64,000 nt of DNA, taken from Pyrinomonadaceae bacterium. GTDB taxonomy: Bacteria; Acidobacteriota; Blastocatellia; Pyrinomonadales; Pyrinomonadaceae. Each line of letters begins with the position of its first letter. Within the stretch, counting starts at the first letter, position 1. Location: assembly GCA_014380365.1 (NCBI GenBank), contig JACMJZ010000025.1, positions 186,001 through 250,000 on the forward strand, written 5' to 3'. The notes below the pieces were generated by a model, which searched no databases, was not told the origin of the DNA, and was given only the letters and a program-made list of their open reading frames with translations. This document shows positions 3,847 to 58,304 of the stretch, one piece after another. A program made the translations under genes and the position numbers.

Positions 3847-3880
3847 TTTCAATTCTCCCTTTCCTGATTACATCCCTAAG

Positions 3881-3928
3881 TGGCACGGGCGTCCCGCACG
3901 TGGATCACGCGCAAGATGCGCGTGCCAC
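3881..3928. repeat. Palindromic repeat family R1 (HAQDARAT-type), copy 1
   Basis: A 48-bp element from TGGCACGGGCGTCCCGC to GATGCGCGTGCCAC, with terminal TGGCACG/CGTGCCA inverted ends. Near-identical copies lie at 21800-21886, 28854-28900, 34704-34751 and, inverted, 35634-35680. This copy fills nearly the whole gap between two exoprotein genes. Confidence 0.85.
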
Positions 3929-16891: not shown

Positions 16892-17071
16892 GTATATAAA
16901 CGTGTACAACAGCACGCGGTTGAGGCGGAGTTGTAATCAGGAACGTGCAGAAAACACTAAAGAAAAAGTAAGGCACGAGGCATTAAGGTCCGAACATTGT
17001 CTCTTGATTGCATTCTCGAAACAAATTCGTTTGGCGATAAATTCAAGTGGTTGAGGAGAAAAGACAAGTCT

Positions 17072-17281
17072 CAGCGCCAACGACGCGAAATGTAGCTGCC
17101 TGGGCCATCGGCCCAGGATCGACGACAAGGATGGTTCTTTAGCGCTGAAAGCGCGAAATGCTGGATTGGCTACCGATTCGCCAGACCGTTCCCATTTCGC
17201 GCTTTCAGCGCTTCCAAAATTTACCCGTTTCCTTACCCAGGGCGTTGCCCTGGGTTGTTACATTTCGCGCCTTTGGCGCTG
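17072..17281. repeat. Long composite palindrome family R3, copy 1
   Basis: About 210 bp that reads roughly the same on both strands: outer arms AGCGCCAACGACGCGAAATG and CATTTCGCGCC...GGCGCT, next arms CTGGGCCATCGGCCCAG and CCAGGGCGTTGCCCTGG, and inner arms AGCGCTGAAAGCGCGAAATG / ATTTCGCGCTTTCAGCGCT. A second copy lies at 25372-25589. With site a it fills the 540-bp gap 16746-17285, in which I see no gene. Confidence 0.85.
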
Positions 17282-17285
17282 GGTC

Positions 17286-21770: not shown

Positions 21771-22886
21771 ATGAAGCTGATTCGACTAACAACTGAAAGT
21801 GGCACGGGCGTGCGGGGTCCCCGGCGGGGCAGCCCCGCTGGGGTGCTCGACCCGCCCGTGGATCACGCGCAAGATGCGCGTGCCACAATCTTGAAGCTCG
21901 TACGCTTCTCTTTCGTCCTGGCGCTGCTGGTATTGACGGCCGGTATTGGCTGGGCCCAACAAGCTGAGGTCAGCAATGCGTCCCACGCGACCCCTTCCGC
22001 TTCGTCTAATTCAACACCATCCACGGAGGATCGTTATCGGATTGGACCCGGCGACGTGCTCGACATTCGTATATTTAACAAACCGCAGTTTTCGCGCGAA
22101 AGCGTTCGCGTTGACGGACGCGGAATGATCCGGATGCCTTTGATTCAAACTGAAATCCAGGCGGCGTGTCGGACCGAAGCAGAACTGGCGCGGGAAGTCA
22201 CCACGCAATACCTGGAATACTTGCGAAACCCGCAGGTCGACGTTTTTATCCGAGACTTCCAGTCGCAGCTCGTGTCGGTACTCGGCGCTGTGCGCACCCC
22301 GACCCGGTTTCAACTCCAGCGTCGCGTTCGCCTCCTGGAATTGCTTTCGCACGCCGGCGGTCCAAACGACGCTGCGGGACGGACCATTCAGGTAGTTCAC
22401 ACCGCCGCGCCTTCGATGTGCGAAACATCGGCGCAGGCCGAAGCCGACGAAACCGCCCTGGATAATTACAAGTTGGATGAAACGCTGAAAGGCGAAGTGG
22501 CGGCGAACCCATACGTGCGTCCCGGCGACGTGATCAGCGTCTCCGAAGCGGAGCAGGCGTTTATCGTCGGCAACGTGCTGAGGCCGCAAGCAATTTCGCT
22601 CAAGGAACGCGTTACCGTCTCACGCGCAGTGGCGATGAGCGGTGGCACGATGCCTGACACGAAGAGCGACCGCGTGCGCATCGTCAGGCAGCCGCCCGGA
22701 ACCACCAACCGGACAGAAATCATCGTGGACTTGAAAGCAATCGACAAGCAGAAGGCCGAAGACGTTGTGCTACAGGCAGGTGACATCGTTGACGTTCCGA
22801 CCTCCGGCGCCAAGAGATTGTTCCGAAGTCTGGTAGGCGCAGTTATTCCTAATATCGCTCAGTTGCCGGTACGTGTCATTCCTTAG
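21771..22886 (+). CDS. Polysaccharide export protein, Wza/BexD-like
   Basis: ATG at 21771 has GGTGA four bases upstream; a TTG at 21726 and a TTG at 21891 are in the same frame. The 21891 start would give a clean signal peptide (MKLVRFSFVLALLVLTAGIG). With the ATG start, about 30 residues ahead of that hydrophobic stretch are written by repeat R1 (SGTGVRGP...DHAQDARAT), so an element has landed between start and signal sequence without breaking the frame. The mature part has the polysaccharide export domain (RYRIGPGDVLDIRIF) followed by SLBB-like units (LVSVLGAVRTPTRF; AFIVGNVLRPQAI). By family it forms the outer-membrane channel for exopolysaccharide. No lipobox cysteine seen. First gene of the cluster, behind site c, and 66 bp before its Wzz/kinase partner. 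Confidence 0.9.
   Translation: MKLIRLTTESGTGVRGPRRGSPAGVLDPPVDHAQDARATILKLVRFSFVLALLVLTAGIGWAQQAEVSNASHATPSASSNSTPSTEDRYRIGPGDVLDIRIFNKPQFSRESVRVDGRGMIRMPLIQTEIQAACRTEAELAREVTTQYLEYLRNPQVDVFIRDFQSQLVSVLGAVRTPTRFQLQRRVRLLELLSHAGGPNDAAGRTIQVVHTAAPSMCETSAQAEADETALDNYKLDETLKGEVAANPYVRPGDVISVSEAEQAFIVGNVLRPQAISLKERVTVSRAVAMSGGTMPDTKSDRVRIVRQPPGTTNRTEIIVDLKAIDKQKAEDVVLQAGDIVDVPTSGAKRLFRSLVGAVIPNIAQLPVRVIP
21800..21886. repeat. Repeat family R1, copy 2, inside the coding start of the exporter
   Basis: Same ends as the 48-bp R1 unit (TGGCACGGGCGT ... GATGCGCGTGCCAC) but enlarged to 87 bp by a GC-rich palindromic insert in the middle. It is read in frame as part of the exporter's N-terminus if translation begins at 21771. 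Confidence 0.85.
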
Positions 22887-22952
22887 AAGTGAGGCGCAGT
22901 TTCTATTGAGAACTGAACTGTCCAACACATATTCCCCAGTCAGGTGAAAACG

Positions 22953-25355
22953 ATGAACGAACCCATAGAGCCACGCAACGAGATTTCGAAACTGACCGCA
23001 CTCGCGAAGCCGGCGGAAACATTCGTGCCTTCGTCCTATTACAGTTATGACCCGGAGGGCGACGGCGAAAAGGGCGGCTACTCGCGACTGCATGATTACC
23101 TGCGTTCCGCACGCAAGCGAATCTGGCTGATCCTGGGAATCGTAGTCGTGATCACCACGCTGGCAGCTTTCTACATGGCGCGCCAGCCGGACGTCTATGA
23201 AGCGAAGGCCAACGTTCAGGTTGACCTGGAGGTAAGCAATCCGGTACTCGGTTCGATCAAGAGTAATTCGTTTATCCTCAACGCCCCGTCGCAGGACCCG
23301 GGCTACTTCAACACCCAGCTACAAATTCTTTCGAGCGCAAATCTGTTGGGTCGCGTAGTCAAGACGCTGGATCTGGCCAACAACCGCGCCTTCGTAAATC
23401 CACAGTCAGTACAGGATCGTTCGACCTGGGGAAGCCTCAAGCACATGGCCGGCTTTGGCAAGAAAACTACGGACGAAGACAAGAATCGTCAGGTTGAACG
23501 ACTGCCGCTCAACGACACCCTCGCGCCTGCGACGGCGCGCGACGACATAGTTGAAATCAACCGGCTTTCTCCCTATGTCGAAAGCCTGCAAAGATCGCTG
23601 ACCGTAAAGCAGATCAACGATACACGGCTGATCGAAATTCGTTTCAAGCACTCTGATCCTCAAGTGGCGTCCAAAGTTATCAATGGCATTGCTGACGCTT
23701 TTGCGTACTCGAATCTCGAGCGAAAGACCGAGACGAGCGACAAGGCCGGCGACTTCCTGCAGAAGCGAATCATCGAGCTCCAAAGCGAAATCCGCCGCGG
23801 CGAAGAGACGCTGATTAACTACGCCAAAAACCACCAGATTATTTCGCTCGACGCCAGCCAGAACACGGTGGTGGATCGACTTTCCGGTCTCAACAAACAA
23901 CTCATGGAGGCGGAGAACGAACGCAAGATGGCAGAGTCGGCTTACCGCGCGAGCCAGGCGCCCGGCGCTGCTGAAGCGCTCGCCGAAGAGTCGGCCAAAC
24001 TCGCGGCTGAAGCGGAGACGAAGCTGATTGAGTTGCGACAAAAGCGCGCTGACCTGCTGGTTGAGTACACAGAAAAAGTTCCTGACATCAAGCAGATTGA
24101 CGAACAGATTGCAGAGCTTGAGAAGCAGGCCAAGGAATCGAGGCGTCAGGCTGTTACTGTGCTCACCACCAATCTCGCGACCCGCTACCGCCAGGCGTTC
24201 GCCGCCGAACAGTCGCTGCGAAAGTCGTTCAATGCGCAACGCGGCGAAACGCTGACGCAAAACGAAGCGGCGGTAAACTACCGCATCATCCAGCAGGAAA
24301 TCGAAACCAATAAGGGATTGCTGGAGGGCCTGTTGGGGCGTGCCAAGGAAAACGACGTGGTAGTGGCAGGAACGCCAAACAACATTCACGTAGTCGATTA
24401 TGCGACGGTGCCCAAGAGTCCGGTGGGACCAAAACGTCTGGAGGGCATTGGCCTGGCGTTCCTCCTTTCGTTTGTTGTGGGGATCGCGTTCGCGCGTTAC
24501 CTGGAATACCTGGACGACACAATTCATTCGTCAGACGATGTGGAGAAGCTCCTCCATCTGCCGGCCCTGGCCGTGATTCCGGCAATTGGAAATTCCGCTC
24601 GCCGCCGTTTGTTGTCGACAGTTACGTCGCTGCAAATGAAGAATGACTTCCAGAGCGAGCTGCTGATCGACTCCGATGCGCGCTCGCCGCTGGCTGAGGC
24701 TTATCGCCATCTGCGAACTTCCATCCTGCTCTCGTCCGCGGGTGGTGCGCCTCAAACTCTGCTGGTCACCTCGAGTCAACCGGCTGAAGGAAAGACTACG
24801 ACGGCGGTCAACACCGCCTTGATTCTGCAGCAGACCGGGGCGAGCGTGCTGCTGATTGATGGAGACATGCGCCGGCCGCGCTTGCATTCGATTTTCGGCA
24901 TGGATAATCAAACCGGCCTCAGCACAATTCTCGCCAGCAAGATGAACGACGCCGAGATGCTCTCGCTGGTTGAACGACACAAGTCGACTGGCGTTTACGT
25001 GCTCACCGCCGGAACGATCCCGCCCAACCCGGCGGAACTGATTGGCTCTGAAACGATGCAACGCCTGATCACCACGCTCAAACGCAAGTTTACGCACATC
25101 ATTATCGACTCGCCGCCAGTTGCTTCGTTTACAGACAGCGTGCTGATCGCGTCGCTGGTGGATGGGGCGCTGCTCGTGGTGCACGGCGATCATGCTTCGC
25201 GCGCAATCGTGCGTCGCTCGAAACAGATGTTGCACGACGTGGGAGCGAAAATCTTCGGCGTGGTCCTGAACAACGTCAGCGAGGTGCCGAACGATTACTA
25301 CTACAGCACTTACTACCAGAAGTATTACAAAGGCGAGGACAGCATCGCGTCTTGA
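22953..25355 (+). CDS. Wzz-type chain-length regulator fused to BY-type tyrosine kinase
   Basis: ATG at 22953 follows AGGTGA with a 5-base gap; a GTG three codons earlier overlaps that site. About 800 residues. A Wzz domain starts with a membrane segment near 56-76 (IWLILGIVVVITTLAAFYM), continues in a long coiled-coil periplasmic part (about 260-440) and returns through a second membrane segment near 500. The C-terminal kinase has Walker A SSQPAEGKTTTA, Walker A' LLIDGDMRRPR and Walker B HIIIDSPP, and ends in a tyrosine cluster (NDYYYSTYYQKYYKG), the usual autophosphorylation tail. By family it sets polymer length and drives export with the Wza-like channel just upstream. Confidence 0.95.
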   Translation: MNEPIEPRNEISKLTALAKPAETFVPSSYYSYDPEGDGEKGGYSRLHDYLRSARKRIWLILGIVVVITTLAAFYMARQPDVYEAKANVQVDLEVSNPVLGSIKSNSFILNAPSQDPGYFNTQLQILSSANLLGRVVKTLDLANNRAFVNPQSVQDRSTWGSLKHMAGFGKKTTDEDKNRQVERLPLNDTLAPATARDDIVEINRLSPYVESLQRSLTVKQINDTRLIEIRFKHSDPQVASKVINGIADAFAYSNLERKTETSDKAGDFLQKRIIELQSEIRRGEETLINYAKNHQIISLDASQNTVVDRLSGLNKQLMEAENERKMAESAYRASQAPGAAEALAEESAKLAAEAETKLIELRQKRADLLVEYTEKVPDIKQIDEQIAELEKQAKESRRQAVTVLTTNLATRYRQAFAAEQSLRKSFNAQRGETLTQNEAAVNYRIIQQEIETNKGLLEGLLGRAKENDVVVAGTPNNIHVVDYATVPKSPVGPKRLEGIGLAFLLSFVVGIAFARYLEYLDDTIHSSDDVEKLLHLPALAVIPAIGNSARRRLLSTVTSLQMKNDFQSELLIDSDARSPLAEAYRHLRTSILLSSAGGAPQTLLVTSSQPAEGKTTTAVNTALILQQTGASVLLIDGDMRRPRLHSIFGMDNQTGLSTILASKMNDAEMLSLVERHKSTGVYVLTAGTIPPNPAELIGSETMQRLITTLKRKFTHIIIDSPPVASFTDSVLIASLVDGALLVVHGDHASRAIVRRSKQMLHDVGAKIFGVVLNNVSEVPNDYYYSTYYQKYYKGEDSIAS

Positions 25356-25371
25356 TTCTGCCTGCCGAATC

Positions 25372-25589
25372 TCAGCGCCAACGGCGCGAAATGTAATAGC
25401 CTGGGCCATCGGCCCAGGTGGGATCCGTCACAAGGCTGCTTCGCGCTGTAGGCGCGAAATGAAGTTGGCCACCATGCTATATTCCCCGTCGAACTTCCGA
25501 TTTCGCGCCTTCAGCGCTTCCAAGAGTCAGTCAGGCATCTCAACCTAGGGCGTTGCCCTAGGCTATTGCATTTCGCGCCGTTGGCGCTG
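25372..25589. repeat. Long composite palindrome family R3, copy 2
   Basis: About 218 bp with the same nested arms as 17072-17281 (AGCGCCAACGGCGCGAAATG ... CATTTCGCGCCGTTGGCGCT; CTGGGCCATCGGCCCAG ... CTAGGGCGTTGCCCTAG). It occupies the gap between the kinase and the first glycosyltransferase. A TTG inside its right arm is in frame with that gene but is not taken as the start. Confidence 0.85.
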
Positions 25590-25631
25590 GAACCTTGGGT
25601 TTCAAGTAGTCTTGCCAGACACTGCTTCCAA

Positions 25632-26867
25632 ATGAAAATTTTGTACCTGAGTGCGTGTGCGCAGTTAGGCGGAGCAGAGAAGAGCCTGCTCGACGTGCTT
25701 GCCAGCATGCGCGCGGCGAAACCCGATTGGCCGCTCCGGCTCATCGCGTCGGAAGACGGCCCACTCATTTCCCGCAGCATGGCGCTCGGCGTGCCAACGA
25801 CCATCGTTCTATTTCCATCAGCCCTGGCTCGCGTGGGAGACGCAGCAGTTGGCGGGCCGGCTGGTCATCAACGAAGCCGCTGGTCGCTTCTGATTGAAAT
25901 GCTACGGGCGGCGCCCGCGGTTCTTAGTTACTCCAGCAGATTGCGAAGAATCATCCGCGAGCTGGCGCCCGACGTTATCCACTCCAATGGATTTAAGATG
26001 CACGTGCTTGGCTTGTGGGCCAAGCCCGCCGGCGTGCCGATTATCTGGCACATACACGACTATGTTTCGGCGCGGCCTTTGATGACCCGTTTGCTGCGTC
26101 ACTATGCAAAGCGCGCGGCGTTGGCCGTGGCCAATTCCAGCAGCGTCGCCGCGGACGTGACGAGCGTCTGCGGCAACCGTCTGATGGTCAAGACGATCTA
26201 CAATGCGATTGACCTGGACAACTTCTCACCTGTTGGCCCAACGCTCGACCTTGACCGGCTCTCCGGATTTGCACCAGCGACTCCCGGAACCATCCGAGTG
26301 GGATTGCTCGGCACGCTGGCACGCTGGAAAGGTCATGAAACTTTTCTCCGCGCGATGGCCCTGATACCAGCCGACGTGCCGGCGCGCGGCTATCTCGCCG
26401 GCGGAGCGCTTTATCAAACGAATGGCAGCCAGCATTCTCTGGCAGAACTTAAAGAGTTGGCCGGCAAACTCGGTGTCGCCGATCGCGTTGGGTTTACCGG
26501 CTTTGTTGATGAACCCGCCGCGGCTATGAGGTCGCTGGACATTGTCGTGCACGCCAGCACTGAGCCCGAGCCGTTTGGCCTGGTGATTGTTGAAGGGATG
26601 GCGTGCGGTCGTGCCGTCATCGCCAGCGAAGGAGGCGGCGCAGCGGAACTTATTTCGGTGGAAACCAACGCCCTGAGTCATGCCCCCGGCGACGCGGAGG
26701 CATTGGCGAAATGTATTACGCGTCTGGCCACTGACTCCGATTTGCGACGCCGGTTGGGACAGGCGGGCAGGAGTACGGCTGAGCAACGCTTTGACCGCGC
26801 GCGCCTGGCGAAGGAGTTAATACCGGAATACCAGAGATCAGAGGTCAGAGGTCAGAGATTAGATTAG
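25632..26867 (+). CDS. Glycosyltransferase, GT4 type
   Basis: I place the start at ATG 25632 (MKILYLSACAQLGGAEKSL), where homology-like sequence begins; the 22 codons before it lie in repeat R3. About 411 residues in two Rossmann-like halves (GT-B fold). The C-terminal donor-binding block TEPEPFGLVIVEGMACG carries the E-x7-E motif of GT4 retaining enzymes. It should add a sugar to the lipid-linked repeat unit on the cytoplasmic side. Its last residues (QRSEVRGQRLD) are encoded by a repeat, not by ancestral gene sequence. Confidence 0.9.
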   Translation: MKILYLSACAQLGGAEKSLLDVLASMRAAKPDWPLRLIASEDGPLISRSMALGVPTTIVLFPSALARVGDAAVGGPAGHQRSRWSLLIEMLRAAPAVLSYSSRLRRIIRELAPDVIHSNGFKMHVLGLWAKPAGVPIIWHIHDYVSARPLMTRLLRHYAKRAALAVANSSSVAADVTSVCGNRLMVKTIYNAIDLDNFSPVGPTLDLDRLSGFAPATPGTIRVGLLGTLARWKGHETFLRAMALIPADVPARGYLAGGALYQTNGSQHSLAELKELAGKLGVADRVGFTGFVDEPAAAMRSLDIVVHASTEPEPFGLVIVEGMACGRAVIASEGGGAAELISVETNALSHAPGDAEALAKCITRLATDSDLRRRLGQAGRSTAEQRFDRARLAKELIPEYQRSEVRGQRLD

Positions 26868-27022
26868 TGTCACAGCCCGGTCGGCGCCGTCTTCCGCTCC
26901 TAACGGAGCTGGAATCTTGTCTGGACTTCAAGCTATAAACATCTCGCTCCTAACGGAGCTACTAACTGACTGCTGACTTCTGATCTCTGACCTCTGACCT
27001 CTGATTTCTGACTTCTGCTTCC
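26832..27022. repeat. Composite inverted repeat (AGAGGTCAGAG / CTCTGACCTCT) with GCTCCTAACGGAGC hairpins
   Basis: Outer arms CAGAGATCAGAGGTCAGAG and its near complement at 26975-27010; inside are two copies of the palindrome GCTCCTAACGGAGCT near 26896 and 26944. A diverged relative seems to lie at 63890-64000. It overlaps the 3' end of the preceding glycosyltransferase gene and ends just before the next gene. Confidence 0.75.
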
Positions 27023-27023
27023 T

Positions 27024-28178
27024 ATGCGTGTTCTTCATATCCATAGTGGGAATATGTATGGCGGGGTGGAGACACTCCTGACCACGCTGGCCCTTCATCG
27101 TGATCTCGCTCCAGATATGGACGCGCATTTTGCGCTTTGCTTTGAACAACGTTTGAGCGCGGAGTTGACTGCTTCAGGAGTTCCTGTGCACTTGCTGGGG
27201 AACGTGCGGATTAGCCGTCTGCTGACGGTCGTGCGCACGCGACGGGCGCTCACGAAGCTCTTGCGCTGCATCCCTTTCGACTTGGCCATCTGTCATTCGG
27301 CATGGTCGCAAGCGCTTTTTGGGCCGACGGTTCGGGCCGCAGAAATCCCGCTGGTCTTCTGGCTTCACGGCGAGGCGAATGGACGACATTGGTTGGAGCG
27401 CTGGGCAGGGAAAACTCCGCCTGACCTGGCGTTGTGCAACAGTAAGTTCACCGCGCAAACGCTTCCGAATATTTACCCGCACGTCCGAACCGAAGTAGTC
27501 TACTGCCCCGTAACACCACCAGAGCGAGGTGAATCAAGCGCAGACCGCGCGGCTACGCGGGCAGAGTTGCAGACGCCGGAGAATGCGGTCGTTATCATTC
27601 AGGTGAGCCGCATGGAATCGTGGAAGGGCCATGCGCTGCATCTCGAAGCTCTCAGCCTGCTGAAAGATTTGCCGGGTTGGGTGTGCTGGCAAGTTGGGGG
27701 CGCGCAGAAGCCAGGCGAACTCGAGTATTTTGCGGAACTGAAGAAAACCGCGATCCGCCTGGGGATTGGCGATCGCGTTCACTTTCTCGGCCAGCGTTCG
27801 GATGTGCCCAAGCTGCTGGCTGCCGCAAACATTCACTGCCAGCCCAATTCCGGGCCAGAGCCTTTTGGCATTGCCTTCATTGAAGCGCTGCACGCCCGCC
27901 TCCCCGTCGTTACGACGGCAATTGGCGGCGCTTGTGAGATCGTGGATGAAAGCTGCGGCTTGCTGGTCCCGCCCGGGGATGCAGAGGCGCTCGCCGCTTC
28001 GCTGCGACGCTTGATCGAGGATGAAAACTTGCGCAGGAGCCTGGGGGCGAGTGGCCCCTTGCGCGCTCAAGAGCTATGCGATCCCGCGACGCAAATTGAG
28101 CGACTCGGCAGGCTGCTTGCTTCCGTCGCTCGTCGCCCCATTGTCAATTCTAACGTGCAACAGGAAGTCACGGGATGA
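27024..28178 (+). CDS. Glycosyltransferase, GT4 type
   Basis: 384 residues from ATG (MRVLHIHSGNMYGGVETLL). The N-terminal acceptor half has the GGVE motif common in GT4; the C-terminal half has GPEPFGIAFIEALHARLPVV with E-x7-E and then GGACEIVDE. It should transfer a sugar from a nucleotide donor to the growing repeat unit. The stop overlaps the start of the following methyltransferase gene (ATGA), so the two are translationally coupled. Confidence 0.9.
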   Translation: MRVLHIHSGNMYGGVETLLTTLALHRDLAPDMDAHFALCFEQRLSAELTASGVPVHLLGNVRISRLLTVVRTRRALTKLLRCIPFDLAICHSAWSQALFGPTVRAAEIPLVFWLHGEANGRHWLERWAGKTPPDLALCNSKFTAQTLPNIYPHVRTEVVYCPVTPPERGESSADRAATRAELQTPENAVVIIQVSRMESWKGHALHLEALSLLKDLPGWVCWQVGGAQKPGELEYFAELKKTAIRLGIGDRVHFLGQRSDVPKLLAAANIHCQPNSGPEPFGIAFIEALHARLPVVTTAIGGACEIVDESCGLLVPPGDAEALAASLRRLIEDENLRRSLGASGPLRAQELCDPATQIERLGRLLASVARRPIVNSNVQQEVTG

Positions 28179-28876
28179 GCACCGCCGCTTACGCAGATCC
28201 TTCTGAAGTAGAAGCGCGCGCGCGCCAGAGCCACGGCACGAGCGACACGGCCATTTATGAAATGGTAGTCAAAGCTCTGGACGCGCGCGGCGTCGCCGGC
28301 GGCACGCTGGTCGATGTTGGCTGTGGAGCGGGTCAACTCCAGCCTTTTATGGAACCACGATTCGCGCGTTACATCGGAGTCGATGTAGTGCGTTACGAAG
28401 ACTTTCCTGCTGAGTCGGAGTTCACGCAGGTTGATCTGGACACCGGCAGGGTAGCGTTGCCGGACGCGAGTGCCGATGTAGTTGCGGCTGTCGAAACCAT
28501 CGAACACCTGGAGAACCCGCGAGCGTTTATGCGCGAGCTGGTGCGATTGGTTAGACCGGGTGGCTGGGTGGTGGTGACCACGCCAAATCAACTGAGCCTG
28601 TTGAGCCTGTTCACGCTGACGGTCAAAAAACGCTTCTCGGCTTTTCAGGATGTGCACTATCCTGCGCATTTAACCGCATTACTGGAAGTGGACTTGAAAC
28701 GCATTGCGCGGGAGTGTGGGCTGGTTGATTTTGCGGTTGTCTACAGTTGCGCCGGACGGATCGTGTTGACTTCCTGGCACTATCCGAAGTTTATCGCCCG
28801 CATGTTACCGCGCGCGCTCTCGGACAATGTGCTTTTGATCGGGCGGAAGAACGTGGCACCGGCGTCCCGCCCGTGA
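28175..28876 (+). CDS. Class I SAM-dependent methyltransferase
   Basis: About 233 residues. Motif I is LVDVGCGAGQLQPF, the acidic end of strand 2 is YIGVDVV, and post-motifs AAVETIEHLENPRAF and LVRPGGWVVVTTPN follow, the Methyltransf_11/Ubie pattern. In this context it probably methylates a sugar or glycan end. Starts with ATGA overlap on the previous glycosyltransferase. The last residues (VAPASRP) are encoded by repeat R1 copy 3, which supplies the stop codon. Confidence 0.88.
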   Translation: MSTAAYADPSEVEARARQSHGTSDTAIYEMVVKALDARGVAGGTLVDVGCGAGQLQPFMEPRFARYIGVDVVRYEDFPAESEFTQVDLDTGRVALPDASADVVAAVETIEHLENPRAFMRELVRLVRPGGWVVVTTPNQLSLLSLFTLTVKKRFSAFQDVHYPAHLTALLEVDLKRIARECGLVDFAVVYSCAGRIVLTSWHYPKFIARMLPRALSDNVLLIGRKNVAPASRP

Positions 28877-28900
28877 TCACGCGCAAGATGCGCGTGCCAC
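28854..28900. repeat. Repeat family R1, copy 3
   Basis: 47 bp, TGGCACCGGCGTCCCGC to GCGTGCCAC, bridging the 3' end of the methyltransferase gene and the gap before the polymerase gene. Confidence 0.85.
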
Positions 28901-28915
28901 AATTTACCAATCGTT

Positions 28916-30262
28916 ATGTCGTTGTCCTTATTACTCTGCCTGCTGGCGTTCACGTTTTGCTATGTCGCCGGTCGCCGTTCCTTAGTGGACGGGCTGGTCG
29001 CCGTGCTGGGGATCGGATACTTCTATGGCATCACCAAAGCCAACCTGGCGGACACCACATCAAACTTCATTTTTGACGCGGGCGTGGTCGGGCTGTATGC
29101 GACCCAGTTGTTTCGGCCTCTGAACGCGCTGCAGAAAACGCGCGTGGAAGCGTTGCGGTCGTGGATGGAGGTGCTGATGCTCTGGGCGCTGCTGATCTTT
29201 TTTCTGCCGGCCCAGGATCTGGTGATTCGCCTGGTCGGTTTGCGTCCCAGCATCTTCTTCCTGCCGTTCCTGCTTTTGGGCGCGAGATTGTTGCCCGAGG
29301 AACGATACAAGTTGGCGCTGTGTCTGGCCGTTTTGAATCTGACGGCGCTCGCGTTTGCGGTCGGGGAATTTATGCTCGGCGTGCCGGCGTTTTTCCCGCG
29401 CAACCAGATGACGAAGATAATTTACGCCAGCAAGGACGTGCTCGGTGCAGATACTCTCTATCGCATCCCAGCCTGTTTCGCCAACGCGCATGCATACGGC
29501 GGCACCATGGTCGCGACGGTTCCCTTCATTGCCGGGGCCTTCCTGCAGAAGCACAAACACCAGTGGCAGCTCTACTTGCTTGTTACTGGTTTGGCGACGG
29601 CGTTGTTGGGCGTGCTCCTCTCTGCCACGCGGGTTAACTTCGTGGCCATTGCAATTCTGATCCTGGTACTTACGTTTTCCATCAAATCAAGAATCGGATA
29701 CGCCTTCGGTTGGATTGTCATCCTGGCAGCAATCGGTCTCTTCGCGGCGGGTGAAGCGCGGCTGCAGCGTGTGGCGGAGTTGCAGAACACCGAGTATGTG
29801 AAAGAACGGGTGGTCGGCAGTGTTAACATGACGTTTTTCGAGTTGGCGGCCCAGTATCCTTTCGGCAATGGGCTGGGTGGAGGCGGCTCCAGCATTCCTT
29901 ATTTCCTGCAGGGCCAGATTCGCAACCCGGTCGTCATGGAAAACGAGTACGCGCGCATCATGCTGGAACAGGGAATCTTTGGGCTGTGCTTGTGGATCGC
30001 GTTCATTGTCTGGCTGGCGAGTAGGTATAAAGGAAGTCGTTCAGATTCGTGGCGCCAGGGCCGGTTCCTCGCATGGTGTGGGTGCATGATAAGTTTCGGC
30101 ATCGGTCTACTGGGCATCGGGCTGTTTGCGTCTGTGCCGCAGACTTGCATCGTACTGATGACCGCAGGGTGGGTTGCCGCTCGCGAACCAACTCCCGTTC
30201 CCGAGCGGGAGAAACAAACAGCGGCGCATGAATTCAAGACCGCTCAACAACTGCCGACGTGA
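28916..30262 (+). CDS. Exopolysaccharide polymerase, Wzy / O-antigen ligase-like membrane protein
   Basis: 448 residues from ATG, with about eleven hydrophobic segments spread over the length and a large periplasmic loop (about 280-340) containing GNGLGGGGSSIPYF and NEYARIMLEQGIFGL, similar in layout to the Wzy_C loop. By family it joins repeat units into the polymer in the periplasm. It is the only polymerase candidate inside the cluster, with a flippase gene nearby, which completes a Wzx/Wzy pathway. A distant relative sits at the left window edge. Confidence 0.85.
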   Translation: MSLSLLLCLLAFTFCYVAGRRSLVDGLVAVLGIGYFYGITKANLADTTSNFIFDAGVVGLYATQLFRPLNALQKTRVEALRSWMEVLMLWALLIFFLPAQDLVIRLVGLRPSIFFLPFLLLGARLLPEERYKLALCLAVLNLTALAFAVGEFMLGVPAFFPRNQMTKIIYASKDVLGADTLYRIPACFANAHAYGGTMVATVPFIAGAFLQKHKHQWQLYLLVTGLATALLGVLLSATRVNFVAIAILILVLTFSIKSRIGYAFGWIVILAAIGLFAAGEARLQRVAELQNTEYVKERVVGSVNMTFFELAAQYPFGNGLGGGGSSIPYFLQGQIRNPVVMENEYARIMLEQGIFGLCLWIAFIVWLASRYKGSRSDSWRQGRFLAWCGCMISFGIGLLGIGLFASVPQTCIVLMTAGWVAAREPTPVPEREKQTAAHEFKTAQQLPT

Positions 30263-30289
30263 AAGCGGTGCTGAGGGAGAGTGTTGCTG

Positions 30290-30431
30290 AGCCCGTGAAG
30301 CGGGCGACAGAGTTACGATTTACGGCAGAATCTGCCGCCCGCTTCGCGGGCTAGTCACTTACTAACTACCTTACCCAGGGTTCCGCTTCGCTTCACCCTG
30401 GGCTTTAGGCTTTCGCCTGCTACGCAGGCTC
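30290..30431. repeat. Composite palindromic repeat, single copy in window
   Basis: Arms AGCCCGTGAAGCGGGCGACA (30290-30309) and TGCCGCCCGCTTCGCGGGCT (30333-30352), then CCCAGGG...CCCTGGG around TTCCGCTTCGCTTCA and a short AGGCTTTCGCCTGCTACGCAGGCT hairpin. Same architecture as R3 (nested palindromes) but different arms. Confidence 0.7.
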
Positions 30432-30453
30432 GTTGTGAGAGTGAAACTTAGCT

Positions 30454-31350
30454 ATGGCTGGATGGATTCGCACAACGCTTCTGAGAGCCTATGCACAAAC
30501 GCCCGAGCACCCCACCAAGTATCGAGTGATCCAGTGGCTGGGAAGGCACGTCTTTCCCGCAAACGGCATAAAACATCGCGCCTACGAAGATATTAAACTC
30601 TACCTGCACCCGCGCGACTGGATTGAGTATTGGCTGCTGCGCGGTGACGACTATGAACCGCTGACGCTGAAGTTTATGGAGCAGAACCTGCGACGCGGCG
30701 ACGTTGCGATTCTCGCCGGAGTTAATTTTGGGTTGCACGTGGCGGTTGCGGCCCGAGCCGTTGGCGATGAAGGGCGCGTGATTGGAATTGAACCTCAGCC
30801 CGCTGCCTTGTTGCGAGCGGCTGAGAACCTGCGGCTGAATAATCTGCTGCACCGCGTAAGTCTGGTAAGCGTGGCGCTCGGCGCTCGCGAAGACCTGGTC
30901 CACATGGCGTGGCCGGCGGCGGCGAATTCGGGCACCGCCAGCTTGCTCGACGAGGGTGCCGGATTGTTGGTTTCAATCATGCCGCTGGCGACTGTTATCA
31001 AAGCGCAGGAGTCTCCGAACGTGCGTCTGCTATTACTGGACGTGCAGGGTTACGAAGCGCAGGCTCTGGCTGGACTGACTGAGGACTGCCTGCCGGAGAT
31101 TCTTATCGTCGAGATCGATCCGGAGTTTCTGCAGAGGGCCCATACGTCAGCCGCCCTACTGCTGAAGCAGATTGTCAATCTCGGTTATTCGTTGCACTCG
31201 CTTGATGGCACCCGGGAGACGCACGATTCAGAATCTTTTCCTGAGCGGAACGTCATCGGCCTGAGAAAGGACGTCGAAGTAAAGTGGGCGAAAGGGTCCA
31301 ACGCGGGAAAGCTGGATCCATGCATTCGCCCGCTGGCGCGGGCTGGTTGA
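30454..31350 (+). CDS. FkbM-family methyltransferase, motif I altered
   Basis: 298 residues from ATG. The FkbM pattern is seen in VIGIEPQPAALLRAAENLRLNN, LVSVALGARED and LLLLDVQGYEAQALAGL. The SAM-binding motif I, normally of the type VDVGANVG (as in the paralogue at 36803), here reads ILAGVNFG, so the acidic residue is lost. The gene is otherwise intact. It may bind SAM more weakly or have another role; in context a sugar O-methyltransferase is the default guess. It follows a 190-bp repeat-filled gap. Confidence 0.82.
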   Translation: MAGWIRTTLLRAYAQTPEHPTKYRVIQWLGRHVFPANGIKHRAYEDIKLYLHPRDWIEYWLLRGDDYEPLTLKFMEQNLRRGDVAILAGVNFGLHVAVAARAVGDEGRVIGIEPQPAALLRAAENLRLNNLLHRVSLVSVALGAREDLVHMAWPAAANSGTASLLDEGAGLLVSIMPLATVIKAQESPNVRLLLLDVQGYEAQALAGLTEDCLPEILIVEIDPEFLQRAHTSAALLLKQIVNLGYSLHSLDGTRETHDSESFPERNVIGLRKDVEVKWAKGSNAGKLDPCIRPLARAG

Positions 31351-31398
31351 CCGTTTCCATTACGATTTTCACTACTGGCAATTCGCACAGTAATCATC

Positions 31399-32934
31399 AT
31401 GAGTCGTACTAAACGCTTTGTCAGCGGGATCAGCTTCGGCTACGCCGGACAGGTATTGACCACTCTGGTGGGTCTCTGGCTCACACCGTTTTTGCTGTTC
31501 CGCATCGGGCAGCATGATTACGGTCTGTGGCTGGTCGGCACACAGTTGATGTTTTATCTCGCCTTATTGGATCTCGGTGTGGTGGCGCTGTTGCCGCGCG
31601 AGACGGCCTTTGCCACCGGTCGCGCCAGCATTGAAGAGTCGGAGGATTTACCGGTCATCGTCGGGCAGGCTCTGCGACTGGTGTTATGGCAAATTCCGCT
31701 GGTGGCGCTGGTAGCCGGCATTGCGTGGTTCACGATTCCGCACGACTGGGAAGGTTTGCGTCATCCTTTGGGACTGGTGCTGCTGGCTTTCGTGTTGACG
31801 TTTCCATTGCGCATCTTCGGCGCAGTGCTACTTGGCCTGCAAGACCTGGCTTTCCTCGGACGCCTGAATATCATTTCGTTTCTAATCAGCACGGCGATTA
31901 CGGTTGTGCTCGTGTTGGCCGGCTGGGGTTTGTATGCGCTGGCGTTTGGCTGGATAGCCGGACAGTTCATCAAGGCCGGCGCGAGTTGGTATCGCTTACG
32001 CCGGCGGTTTCCGTCAGTCCTGCCAGGGAATTTGCCGGAGCTCGGTTGGAGCGTGACGCGCGTTCGCCTGGTCAGCGGCTTCTGGGTCAGTCTGAACCAG
32101 ATCGCCCAGGTGCTCTTGAACGGCACTGAAATTTTGATCATTGGAAAACTCTTTGGCCCGGCGGCAGTCGTGCCTTACGTGTGCACGGGAAAACTGGTCA
32201 GCGTATTGGCGACGCAGCCGCAAATGTTCATGGCGTCGGCGAGTCCCGCGCTGAGCCAGATGAGAACGGGCGAAACGCGCGAGCGCCTGGCTGAGGTTTG
32301 CATTGCCCTGGGCCAGGCCACGCTGTTGCTCAGCGGCGCCGGCGTCTGCATAGTGTTAATGGTTAATCAGGGTTTCATCGAGCGTTGGGTTGGCCCGGAC
32401 CAATATGGCGGATTCTGGCTGACGGCCCTGCTGTTGTTGAGTATGCTGATTCGCCACTGGAATCTTACGCTGGGCTATACGATTTTTTCTTTTGGCTACG
32501 AGCGGCGGTTGTGCGTGACTGCGCTGGCGGACGGGATGTTGAGTATTGGCTCCGTGTCTTTATTCGTTTGGCTATATGGATTGATCGGAGCGCCGCTGGG
32601 CATGATGGTAGGGGTTTGCCTGGTAAGCTTGCCGGCAAACCTGATGGCGCTCGCGCGCGAAAGCAAGATGACGGTTTGGGAATTAGTAAAACCTTTGTCG
32701 GCCTGGTTCATTCGCTTTGTGGCGCTCATACTGGCTGCGGGTGCGTTGGCGAGAATGTGGTCGCCTAGAACTGTGCCGCTCTTGATTGCAACTGTCGCAG
32801 CGAGCGGGCTCGTTTATTTGTTGGTAATGTTTCCGCTGGCGCTGCGTGACCCGCTCGGCATCTACGTGCGTCCGCGGATTTTCCCTTGGCGAGCCAGGAT
32901 GATGCGGGCCCTGCGTCTGCGTGCTTCTGTTTGA
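31399..32934 (+). CDS. Polysaccharide flippase, Wzx-like (MOP superfamily)
   Basis: 511 residues from ATG, with twelve or more hydrophobic segments evenly spread, starting SGISFGYAGQVLTTLVGLWLTPFLL. Central parts such as VSLNQIAQVLLNGTEILIIGKLFGPAAV match the Wzx/MATE-like flippase layout. It should move lipid-linked repeat units across the inner membrane for the polymerase at 28916. The following glycosyltransferase gene starts 31 bp after its stop. Confidence 0.9.
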   Translation: MSRTKRFVSGISFGYAGQVLTTLVGLWLTPFLLFRIGQHDYGLWLVGTQLMFYLALLDLGVVALLPRETAFATGRASIEESEDLPVIVGQALRLVLWQIPLVALVAGIAWFTIPHDWEGLRHPLGLVLLAFVLTFPLRIFGAVLLGLQDLAFLGRLNIISFLISTAITVVLVLAGWGLYALAFGWIAGQFIKAGASWYRLRRRFPSVLPGNLPELGWSVTRVRLVSGFWVSLNQIAQVLLNGTEILIIGKLFGPAAVVPYVCTGKLVSVLATQPQMFMASASPALSQMRTGETRERLAEVCIALGQATLLLSGAGVCIVLMVNQGFIERWVGPDQYGGFWLTALLLLSMLIRHWNLTLGYTIFSFGYERRLCVTALADGMLSIGSVSLFVWLYGLIGAPLGMMVGVCLVSLPANLMALARESKMTVWELVKPLSAWFIRFVALILAAGALARMWSPRTVPLLIATVAASGLVYLLVMFPLALRDPLGIYVRPRIFPWRARMMRALRLRASV

Positions 32935-32965
32935 GAATGAGTCTGCGAGTTTCACTGCGAACTCA

Positions 32966-33967
32966 ATGAAACCCCATTCCCCAAATTCGACACCGTCCCC
33001 CAGGGTCTCGGTTGTCTTACTGAGTTACAACCGGCCCGCCTATTTAAGGGAAGCGCTGGCCGCGCTGGCCGTGCAGTCGTATCAAGACATGGAGGTCACG
33101 GTCGTCGACAATCCCAGCCCGGCCAGTGAAGAGATCGCCAAAATCGTCAGACAGTATCCGCGCATCACGTTCCTTCAACACAAAGTCAATCTGGGTTACA
33201 CGGGTGGGATGAACAGCGGCATGATGAGTGTTTCCGGACACTACATCTGTCTGACGGAAGACGACATCGTCATGGACGAAAACTGCATACAGCGCTTCGT
33301 CGAATACATGGATGACCATCCTGCTACGGGCCTGATCGCGCCGATTATCTATAACAAAGCGGCGCGGACGATTCGCTGGGCAGGCGGCCGGTTTGAGTTA
33401 GGCGGCGTCTATCGAATGAAAATCTTCGGTGCCGGAGAGACCGACGCCGGACAGTTTGAGGATCCCTTCGAGGTAAACTTCATAGACGGCGCGACAATGT
33501 TTGCACGCGCCGACTTATGGAAGAGTCTTAAAGGATTCCACGAGGATTTTTTTATGTATGCGGAGGCAGTTGAGTTTAGTATTCGCGTCGCTCTGACGGG
33601 CCAGAAGCTCGAGGTCGTGCCGCAGGCGAAGGTTTACCATTTCGAGCCGCCAGAGAGGCCGACGCCACCGGAGATAGAGTTTCATAAAGTCAAAAATTTC
33701 TTTGCGCTCTACTTGCTGCATGCACCGCTCGGCAACCTGCCGGAGTTTGTTTTCCGGTACGCAGTCTTGAATACCTTGCGCTCGGCGCTCGGCCGCAAGG
33801 GGAACACCCTATTGACTCTCAAAGCTCTGTGGTGGGTCCTGAAAAAGACGCCTGGCTTGCTGAGGGAACGGCGCAAGGGCGTTCCTCAAATCAATGTTCT
33901 CGATTCTGTTGCAACTGCGACCGGCACCTTAAAAAATGAGCAAGCTCCGCAAGCTGTGAATCACTGA
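32966..33967 (+). CDS. Glycosyltransferase, GT2 (rhamnosyltransferase-like)
   Basis: Start set at ATG 32966 (MKPHSPNSTPSPRVSVVLLSY); the frame extends 15 codons up into the flippase gene via GTG. About 333 residues. GT-A features: VSVVLLSYNRPAYLREAL, TVVDNPSP, NLGYTGGMNSGM, and LTEDDIVMDE in the DxD position, with FFMYAEAVEFSIRV in the acceptor part. The only inverting GT-A enzyme in the cluster. Its stop overlaps the next start by one base (TGATG). Confidence 0.92.
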   Translation: MKPHSPNSTPSPRVSVVLLSYNRPAYLREALAALAVQSYQDMEVTVVDNPSPASEEIAKIVRQYPRITFLQHKVNLGYTGGMNSGMMSVSGHYICLTEDDIVMDENCIQRFVEYMDDHPATGLIAPIIYNKAARTIRWAGGRFELGGVYRMKIFGAGETDAGQFEDPFEVNFIDGATMFARADLWKSLKGFHEDFFMYAEAVEFSIRVALTGQKLEVVPQAKVYHFEPPERPTPPEIEFHKVKNFFALYLLHAPLGNLPEFVFRYAVLNTLRSALGRKGNTLLTLKALWWVLKKTPGLLRERRKGVPQINVLDSVATATGTLKNEQAPQAVNH

Positions 33968-34761
33968 TGGTCTTTAAAGAAACACTTCGAGATGTCACGT
34001 ACAAGGTTGCGCCGCGCCGGATTCTGGATGGCTATCACTACCTGAAAACGGTGCACCACGCGCGCCGCCTTAGCGCCCTGAGAGACAGCGGCGGCGATCC
34101 GCAGATTTGGCTGGACGCGCTCTGGAGTTCTCACTTCTTTCGTCCCCTGCAAAAGCGCACAGAGATTTTGGGTTTGGTTGAAGTTCTGAGACAGCTCAAG
34201 CCGTCGACAATCTGTGAGATCGGCGCGGCGGGAGGGGGAACAACTTTCCTCTTGGCCCATGCCTGTCCTTCCGACGCAGTGATCGTTACCGTCGACCTGA
34301 TATTTAGTGAGCGGCGCAAAGCCGCCCTCAAACAATTCGCAGTGGCGGAGCAGAAGATTTTCTGTTTGCAAAAAGATTCGCATCAGGTGGAGACCGTGAC
34401 AGCGATCAGCGAGTGTTTGCCTGATGGGAAACTCGACGTGCTCTACCTCGACGGGGACCACAGCTACGCTGGGATAAAAGCCGACTTCGAATTGTTTAGC
34501 CCGCTCGTCAAGCCGGGAGGCATCATTGTCTTCCACGACATTGTGCCCGACTTCAAGACTCGCCATGGCGTCGAAACGACGAGTTACACCGGCGGTGTAC
34601 CGCAATTCTGGCAAGAGCTGAAAGCTTCTCACGAAAGAGTGGAGGAGCTGGTTGAGGATGCGGCGCAGGATGGTTACGGCATCGGAATCCTGCATTGGAA
34701 AAGTGGCACGGGCGTCCCGCCCGTGAATCACGCGCAAGATGCGCGTGCCACCCAGAACTGA
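33967..34761 (+). CDS. CmcI/cephalosporin hydroxylase-like SAM methyltransferase
   Basis: 264 residues from an ATG that overlaps the previous stop by one base. Class I fold with motif I ICEIGAAGGGTTFLL, VTVDLIFSER, YLDGDHSYAGIKADFE (typical of the CmcI/Methyltransf_24 type) and PGGIIVFHDI. Likely a sugar O-methyltransferase in this setting. The C-terminal tail SGTGVPPVNHAQDARAT comes from repeat R1 copy 4, which also lies just before the stop: an example of a mobile palindrome extending a protein. Confidence 0.87.
   Translation: MVFKETLRDVTYKVAPRRILDGYHYLKTVHHARRLSALRDSGGDPQIWLDALWSSHFFRPLQKRTEILGLVEVLRQLKPSTICEIGAAGGGTTFLLAHACPSDAVIVTVDLIFSERRKAALKQFAVAEQKIFCLQKDSHQVETVTAISECLPDGKLDVLYLDGDHSYAGIKADFELFSPLVKPGGIIVFHDIVPDFKTRHGVETTSYTGGVPQFWQELKASHERVEELVEDAAQDGYGIGILHWKSGTGVPPVNHAQDARATQN
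34704..34751. repeat. Repeat family R1, copy 4, in frame at a gene end
   Basis: 48 bp, the closest match to the consensus TGGCACGGGCGTCCCGCCCGTG...GATGCGCGTGCCAC. It is translated as the C-terminal tail of the methyltransferase encoded at 33967-34761. Confidence 0.88.
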
Positions 34762-35632: not shown

Positions 35633-35633
35633 G

Positions 35634-35680
35634 TGGCACGCGCATCTTGCTCGTGATCACGGGCAGGATGCCCGTGCCAC
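35634..35680. repeat. Repeat family R1, copy 5, inverted
   Basis: 47 bp in the opposite orientation to the other copies, starting two bases after the TylF-type gene's stop. A reading frame that enters the next gene runs through it, but the better start for that gene is downstream. Confidence 0.85.
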
Positions 35681-37627: not shown

Positions 37628-37692
37628 TGTCAGTACGACCGACCGGGCCGACCTTTCGGTAGTGGTGCAGTTTGCTGGATTGAAGATGCTTT

Positions 37693-37784
37693 TCTTTGCG
37701 TTTCTCTTTCGTCTTGGCGTACTTTGCGGTAAACCGAACAGCGAAACCGCAAAGAGCGCAAAGTAGACGCAAAGGGTCGCAAAG
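37693..37784. repeat. GCAAAG palindromic repeat family R2, copy 2
   Basis: CTTTGCG-rich left half, ACCGCAAAGAGCGCAAAG-rich right half, between a methyltransferase gene and a glycosyltransferase gene. Confidence 0.85.
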
Positions 37785-37867
37785 AAGAACCTGTCTCAAC
37801 GACGATCTTTTGTGTTACTTGCCCGGCTTCGTCATCGAGGCCACCGCTCACACAGTAGTGAAAAACT

Positions 37868-57989: not shown

Positions 57990-58304
57990 TTGTGTCCGAC
58001 GAGAAGTAAACAAGAAAAACTATGCTACCACGTAGCAGAGGAAGTAACTGCGGGTCCTCGGACTTGGGAAGTGTCTATGCTTGTGTTGCTGCGGCCAACG
58101 AATGGCCTTTCCAAAGAAGTGGGAAAAACATCACGCGGCCCTCGCGCTGTACTTTGCTTACTACAACTTCTGACGGATGCACAAATCTTTAAGGTGTACT
58201 CCGGCGATGGCGGCGGGAACCACGAAGCGTCTTTGGATGCTAAAAGATTTACTAATGGAGGCAACGAGTATATAAGCTGCTTCGGCAAAGTTAATGACCA
58301 CTAA
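57990..58304 (+). CDS. Small protein of unknown function, coupled to downstream membrane protein
   Basis: 104 residues from a TTG, or about 75 from ATG 58077 (MLVLLRPTNGLSKEVGK). No family recognised. C-terminus GGGNHEASLDAKRFTNGGNEYISCFGKVNDH looks protein-like. The stop overlaps the next start by 11 bases, which supports a real coupled gene. Lower GC than the cluster around it, as for its neighbour. Confidence 0.5.
   Translation: MCPTRSKQEKLCYHVAEEVTAGPRTWEVSMLVLLRPTNGLSKEVGKTSRGPRAVLCLLQLLTDAQIFKVYSGDGGGNHEASLDAKRFTNGGNEYISCFGKVNDH

Follow-up and report, generated by a model that had tools for sequence, protein, structure and literature searches.

R1 is a palindromic repeat present in five copies in the window analysed here, a 64,000-nucleotide stretch from a Pyrinomonadaceae soil bacterium (contig JACMJZ010000025.1, positions 186,001 to 250,000; whole genome 4,977,406 bases in 34 contigs), with two of the copies forming the ends of methyltransferase genes. 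The best explanation of R1, and one which we hold to be fairly probable, is that of a repetitive extragenic palindromic (REP) dimer which has spread partly inside an IS1-type miniature transposon, forming its core, and has been filtered by selection, with the protein tails that it encodes arising as by-products. At the level of sequence, the IS1-type route is evident for a subset of copies and is presumed for the remainder.

Each R1 unit pairs two GTGG-tagged REP hairpins head to head as a heterodimer, A (GTGGCACGGGCGTCCCGCCCGTG) and B (GTGGCACGCGCATCTTGCGCGTG), separated by a spacer of about 3 nt, with both halves carrying the GT(A/G)G tag of REPs immediately 5' of a short hairpin. Regions fetched around R1 matches genome-wide (~0.9 Mb, window included) resolved 187 half matches, counted as 101 elements comprising 71 dimers (spacer ≤16 nt) and 30 single halves (≤3 mismatches); single halves with 4–6 mismatches to both references, and L066, which overlaps L052, were left out of the counts. 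Inverted pairs of halves no more than 60 nt apart in these regions are A+B heterodimers in 75 of 77 cases, with two pairs found in tandem. The spacer is 3 nt long in 50 of the 71 dimers and most commonly reads AAT (27/71), giving a usual unit of 49 nt. An earlier note on this DNA had described five copies of a ~48-bp palindrome in the window; the five copies are real and above chance, with a 17-mer matching six times in the window at ≤3 mismatches where shuffles predict 0.37, and a 23-mer four times where they predict 0.00, but 48 nt is not the usual length. Single-stranded DNA folding gives two hairpins on a shared stem, or one long hairpin, and the z-scores of the five window copies, folded as DNA, range from -3.4 to -5.8. 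These copies, two of which are intergenic (3880 and 35633), are as follows.

3880..3928, plus strand: R1 dimer of 49 nt, intergenic, with called genes 33 nt and 2 nt away on its two sides.
21799..21886, plus strand: R1 variant of 88 nt in which a nested hairpin enlarges hairpin A, 5' of the signal peptide of an exporter.
28853..28900, plus strand: R1 dimer of 48 nt, giving a methyltransferase gene its last seven residues, VAPASRP, and its TGA stop.
34703..34751, plus strand: R1 dimer of 49 nt with 0 mismatches to the reference halves, read as SGTGVPPVNHAQDARAT in a methyltransferase tail, with the gene end 10 nt further on.
35633..35680, minus strand: R1 dimer of 48 nt, intergenic, immediately 3' of the stop of the 34784–35632 gene.

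A nested hairpin within A, as in the 21799–21886 copy, occurs in three further copies of the fetched regions (L073, L075 and L105).

The evidence for transposition lies in the flanks of the dimers, which show a weak consensus extending R1 into longer palindromes of the form GTAGTGGTGCAGTTTGA-n-R1-n-TCAAACTGCACCACTAC, with the 17-nt ends of the miniature transposon reading GTAGTGGTGCAGTTTGA or GTAGTGGGTCAGTTTGA. When the fetched loci were all scanned stringently, ten elements proved to have both ends, seven of them with an R1 core, all seven being 88–89 bp long and located in related genomes. Direct repeats of 8–10 nt lie outside the ends of five of the ten two-ended elements (three of the seven R1 cores) against 0.57 expected for the ten, and repeats of at least 5 nt lie outside nine of the ten (six of the seven R1 cores) against 1.59 expected. 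A looser set shows direct repeats of at least 8 nt around 6/30 armed dimers, 14–34 nt from R1 (0.26 expected), and around 8/90 unarmed dimers, 0–34 nt from R1 (0.93 expected). The shared terminal inverted repeats and the 8–9-bp target-site duplications that define IS1-family miniature inverted-repeat transposable elements (MITEs) are each found in a subset of copies, in related genomes. Among the dimers of other genomes, 24 of the 37 intergenic and 3 of the 12 coding ones have arms exceeding the 99% control level, and in the window's own genome both arms are present at L051.

The same ends also occur in viral contigs where, among the matches listed, an IS1-like transposase lies within 15 of the 19 end pairs spaced 0.7–5 kb apart (one being the query itself, and contig L402 being counted twice), and such a transposase stands on the inner side of 50 of 151 ends and on the outer side of 3. 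The transposase scores 30.2 bits against PF03400 (cut-off 24.1) and 70 bits against NF033558, under the cut-off of 100. A relic of this transposase type, whose ends flank armed R1, lies in the window itself.

58105..58254, plus strand: IS1-like transposase relic, 52% identity over 50 aa.

R1 would accordingly be a non-autonomous dispersed repeat, at least part of whose spread in this bacterial family took place as the core of an 88–89-bp miniature transposon with 8–10-bp target duplications, and on whose R1-core elements an IS1-type transposase may have acted in trans.

Several observations weigh against this route, most of them from the genome of the window. None of the seven two-ended R1-core elements belongs to it, and its arms exceed the 99% control in only 10/47 intergenic and 1/24 coding dimers. 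The five window copies have no clear arms, with four of the five in the control range and that at 34703 borderline (0.039 of controls). No target duplication abuts a bare dimer, with 13 of 117 showing equal dinucleotides against 14.2 in shuffles in a test that left out dimers with more than six mismatches in all or with short flanks. The gene calls that divide coding from intergenic copies come from an in-house dicodon gene finder. Additionally, in a protein which we take to be NorD-like, the R1 peptide stands at the identical site in two genera (L329 and L382; 60% identity), so that not every insertion is recent; this insertion may be older, or may have arisen independently in each genus. The bare dimers, which form the majority in the window's own genome, could be eroded, or could have been moved by some other enzyme.

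R1 might instead be a classical REPIN (a REP doublet forming hairpins) copied by a RAYT (REP-associated tyrosine transposase), with the IS1-type arms reflecting only later capture by, or insertion into, IS1-derived miniature elements. The hallmarks of a REP are all present, namely the GTGG tag, the hairpins, the head-to-head dimers and the placement 3' of genes, and the lack of arms on most own-genome dimers suits this explanation. RAYT matches occur in 77 of 99 genomes of the family. Four RAYT-like genes lie in the window's own genome, with L034 scoring 88.3 bits and L035 80.0 bits (NF047646 cut-off 80) and two falling just under; L035 (C5:504044) is flanked by GTAG-tagged REPs of a sequence unlike R1 (GTAGGACAGACATTCCTGTCTGTC), and in G101, one of the R1-rich genomes, the RAYT gene L246 has GTGGCACAGACTTTAGTCTGTG repeats at its flanks. 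R1 directly flanks none of the RAYT/Y1 loci in scans of 34, 26 (6 repeats) and 45 loci, from the own and R1-rich genomes, with 11 of the 77 Y1 matches lying outside the loci scanned; at L253, R1 lies ~0.8 kb from an IS200-like gene. The 8–10-bp duplications of the armed copies also speak against a RAYT, as RAYTs are not known to produce such duplications. That a RAYT moves R1 was set aside as unproven. The missing R1 flank is not decisive, however, because RAYT-like genes flanked by long inverted repeats in place of REPs, including some from Acidobacteria, are reported in the available part of Di Nocera et al. (PMC3733652), an exception to the account of Nunvar et al. 2010 (PMC2817692, as far as available), in which RAYTs invariably lie between two inverted REPs. 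We regard the REPIN explanation as rather unlikely, and continue with a REP dimer spread partly by IS1-type transposition.

The distribution of R1 is patchy. At ≤3 mismatches the window's own genome holds 91 B halves and 75 A halves, with none for either in a reversed control. At ≤1 mismatch a half site is present in 17 of 162 genomes of the class, with 129 matches in the own genome, 128 in G066, 106 in G093, 83 in G101, 34 in G088, 19 in G067 and 1–4 in each of eleven others; 15 genus mates of the window's genome have 0–4 each, against its 129. The exact dimer was found in 14 stretches among named genomes, all of them metagenome-assembled genomes of Acidobacteria (Blastocatellia UBA11740 and palsa_120; gp4 AA25 and AA26), a search from which records close to the own genome may be left out.

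Although called coding sequence makes up 85% of the DNA, 67 of the 101 R1 elements of the own genome are intergenic, and adjoining gene 3' ends lie within 15 nt of the repeat in 33 of 57 cases, compared with 6 of 77 for gene starts. The five other R1-rich genomes, sampled as 94 elements in 73 regions among the matches listed, agree with this, having 71 of 94 elements intergenic and 18/54 stops and 1/74 starts within 15 nt. R1 thereby shows the numerous dispersed copies, mainly extragenic and near gene 3' ends, that are typical of REPs. As broken genes around tight intergenic copies might be a source of ascertainment bias, ten gene pairs around such copies were scanned with Pfam, with no domain found divided across R1 (a spot check in which 2 of the 20 proteins were unmatched and several matches were weak). 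The strong hairpins, folded as DNA, and the clustering just 3' of stop codons could mean that gene-end copies are kept for a function in RNA, as a terminator or an mRNA stabiliser, with the coding overlaps incidental. This is an unlikely account, as 145 of the 162 class genomes have no half site at ≤1 mismatch, and near-stop placement is also expected from selection against gene disruption. Under spread followed by selection, the surviving copies would sit mainly just 3' of stop codons.

Where a copy overlaps a gene end, translation would enter R1 and either stop at a TGA formed from ...CCCGTG+A (VARASRP-stop) or read through as SGTGVPPVNHAQDARAT. Seven genes of the own genome end at the A-half TGA with VAR/VAP...P tails (L055, L056, L083, L093, L095, L097 and the window copy at 28853), and there is read-through into a tail at two dimers, window 34703 and L084, and at the single half L105. 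The repeat is also tolerated inside genes, as had been claimed, with thirteen called genes of the own genome carrying R1 internally in frame, the exporter excluded. Proteins containing it include, in the own genome, a valyl-tRNA synthetase (ValRS, L087), EPSP synthase (L050), an EgtB-like enzyme (L077), a GcvT-like protein (L057), agmatine deiminase (L091), a carbamoyltransferase (L079), a Rieske oxygenase (L059), a molybdopterin enzyme (L100) and an FKBP isomerase (L108), and, in other genomes, alanyl-tRNA synthetase (L353), a racemase (L388) and a penicillin amidase (L385). At three own-genome loci (L064, L077 and L092), the start codon of the called gene is an ATG or GTG lying in the B half (MRVP... 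or VRVP...); R1 might then be a source of start codons too, or these starts may be artefacts of the gene finder.

That R1 is built for frame compatibility is not borne out, with dimer length equal to 1 modulo 3 in 53 of 71 own-genome dimers and a multiple of three in 12 of 71, and with a mean of about 4.2 open frames out of six for R1 dimers, near the value of about 3.8 for random 49-mers of the same genome. Frame usage within genes is nevertheless biased. Of 18 read-through dimers in both data sets, 12 share the A-first orientation and phase 1, and thereby encode SGTGVPPVNHAQDARAT (p = 2.3e-4 with one quarter expected, an expectation that treats four open readings as equally used, whilst the copies are not strictly independent). 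The safer count is 11 of 17 (p = 6.3e-4), obtained without the doubtful L362, because this copy lies 5' of a lipoprotein-like signal and bears transposon arms.

Orientation follows a similar pattern, with A-first copies accounting for 15/18 read-through dimers and 10/11 dimers with an internal stop, but 17/50 intergenic dimers between co-oriented genes. The totals of 42 A-first and 37 B-first copies are nearly equal, as if insertion were neutral with respect to orientation and the fates of the two orientations differed; part of the intergenic A-first deficit may consist of A-first copies absorbed into gene ends. The bias within genes looks like filtering rather than built-in frame compatibility, and we infer that purifying selection on the peptide explains it for both frame and orientation.

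Comparison with orthologues points to insertion. All ten aligned genus orthologues of ValRS lack the insert and have a short variable linker at the R1 site, and the insert is absent from 9/9 usable genus orthologue rows of EPSP synthase, the tenth row (L186) being a wrong open reading frame (ORF) and excluded. The inserts in EgtB and GcvT align to gaps in homologues from the PDB. The loop of agmatine deiminase has no R1 in the 13 relatives examined (of 19 fetched): the loop is short in ten, carries a short VSDKLSDK in L301, and in L299 and L300 contains a different palindromic repeat reading SDKLQFV...DKLxFxG, so that among L298–L301 R1 occupies this loop in one species, and a different family of palindromes does so in two sister species. 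The alternative, that tails and inserts alike stem from ancestral protein sequence with a chance resemblance to the repeat, would be favoured by the same tails in distant genera, as the earlier note recognised. The shared site of the NorD-like protein in two genera is of this kind. The ValRS, EPSP synthase and agmatine deiminase comparisons oppose it, and R1 in genes matches the intergenic copies in DNA and not in peptide alone, leaving ancestry a very remote prospect. Where orthologues can be compared, intra-protein copies would appear to occupy variable loops or linkers, mostly in an orientation and frame giving a small unstructured-looking peptide, and the tails are best seen as by-products tolerated by selection, with no function of their own seen.

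The window genes concerned are as follows.

21771..22886, plus strand: polysaccharide export protein (PF02563, SLBB), 3' of the R1 variant.
28175..28876, plus strand: methyltransferase gene (PF13489) terminated by R1, with the protein ending ...KN-VAPASRP-stop and the TGA within the element.
33967..34761, plus strand: CmcI-like methyltransferase gene (PF13578, PF04989; match up to residue 195 of 264), with an R1 tail.

The translation of 33967–34761 agrees with the claim that R1 forms the C-terminal tail of the CmcI-like enzyme, ending ...HWK-SGTGVPPVNHAQDARAT-QN, and the last residues and stop of the 28175 methyltransferase likewise come from the repeat; the Pfam domains of both enzymes stop short of the R1 tails. 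Homologues of the CmcI-like enzyme beyond the own genome are only distant (best 32% identity, 35 genomes), and its tail is therefore a putative R1 addition, read from the DNA repeat. For the exporter, R1 had been placed between the start codon and the signal peptide, and the ORF does translate as M-KLIRLTTE-SGTGVRGPRRGSPAGVLDPPVDHAQDARAT-I-LKLVRFSFVLALL. However, a TTG at 21891, directly 3' of the R1 variant, begins an ordinary signal peptide, and among 13 homologous loci none has R1 DNA and none of the 11 readable N-termini has an R1 peptide, so that the copy probably lies in the 5' leader of a gene starting at this TTG rather than within an ORF starting at ATG 21771. The repeat at 26832 had been thought to encode a tail likewise; the QRSEVRGQRLD tail of a glycosyltransferase is real, but its DNA is a CAGAGRT heptad repeat (26832–26863, inverted partner 26979–27017) and not R1. 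No other CAGAGRT arrays of at least four units were found in the own-genome regions searched. Two further repeats were observed in the window, namely 24-nt repeats at 53643–54357 (17 registered copies), which could code for a GIVMTGAD-type peptide repeat, and a pair of another inverted repeat element at 17069–17282 and 25370–25590, with CAGCGCC...GGCGCTG arms.

R1 is not the only core with IS1-type ends. CGCAAAG palindromes with the same end (GTAGTGGTGCAGTTTG) occur at 37659–37790 of the window and, with both ends, at L056:9764–9906 of the own genome; the long outer palindrome without R1, sought as a single exact pattern, has no match in 390 loci, yet these other cores with the same ends exist. 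In one gene the R1 peptide itself has multiplied, the NorD-like protein at L329:1811–5083 containing four HAQDAHAT-like units in tandem. It is conceivable, if somewhat short of probable, that IS1-type miniature transposons with interchangeable cores (R1, DKLxFV-coding and CGCAAAG) are a running source of protein sequence, with unrelated cores placed in the same enzyme loop of sister species, one R1 frame kept by selection, and tandem expansion within proteins possible. If true, conserved enzymes would have loops that mobile DNA writes time and again.

With the same 49-nt unit in many genes and outside copies for comparison, R1 offers a natural experiment on the passage of mobile DNA into protein. 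That an IS1-type miniature transposon can have a REP dimer at its core also bears on what moves REPs for which no RAYT is found. For annotation, HAQDARAT-like strings in proteins are a sign of a mobile repeat and not of homology, with one of our enzyme queries having matched other R1 copies of the own genome through the R1 peptide. Literature searches found no paper on the HAQDARAT peptide or on REP sequences in Blastocatellia, and nothing on R1 in work on intragenic REPs and RAYTs, REPINs in Acidobacteria, or ISMhu11 and IS1-family MITEs; a 2025 tool paper (PMC12306157, as far as available) counts putative REPs in three Acidobacteriota genomes. As far as the literature searched extends, the R1 family, the IS1-type vehicle that carries it, the bias in frame counted here and the use of one loop by different repeat families are new.

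Among known systems, REPINs, reportedly described with their RAYTs by Bertels and Rainey in 2011, resemble R1 in having two inverted REPs as the unit, a GTGG/GTAG tag and RAYT genes in the genome, and differ in having a cognate RAYT flanked by the same REP, none being found for R1 among the loci scanned. IS1-family MITEs have terminal inverted repeats and 8–10-bp target duplications in common with the R1 subset of related genomes; the core of R1, however, is a REP dimer, and most own-genome dimers are armless. The Rickettsia palindromic elements (RPE) are likewise palindromic repeats lying in frame within genes of varied function, and the earlier comparison of R1 with them holds as a similarity of effect. 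R1 as a Rickettsia element itself is excluded, with RPE-4 and RPE-6 being CGTC-tagged in the account available from PMC3733652 and R1 being GTGG-tagged.

R1 fits the kind of REP dimer described in 2013 by Di Nocera et al. (PMC3733652), the available part of which already covers tagged REPs, head-to-head heterodimers, ORF-internal copies, REP ends giving stop codons and dimers nested in longer palindromes; intragenic copies and the supply of stop codons by tagged REP dimers are thus already published. The closest kind there is the GTGG-tagged GTAG-20 family of Opitutus terrae, which has in common with R1 the tag, the head-to-head (hetero)dimers, the placement after genes, the ORF copies and the supply of stops. 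In that part of the paper GTAG repeats are attributed to Proteobacteria, Cyanobacteria, Chloroflexi and the PVC group, with Acidobacteria mentioned for transposases only. Compared with the GTAG-tagged REPs as described there, R1 is a repeat of Blastocatellia (Acidobacteriota), and the account there includes neither nesting between IS1-type ends that are bordered by target duplications nor a count of biased frames.

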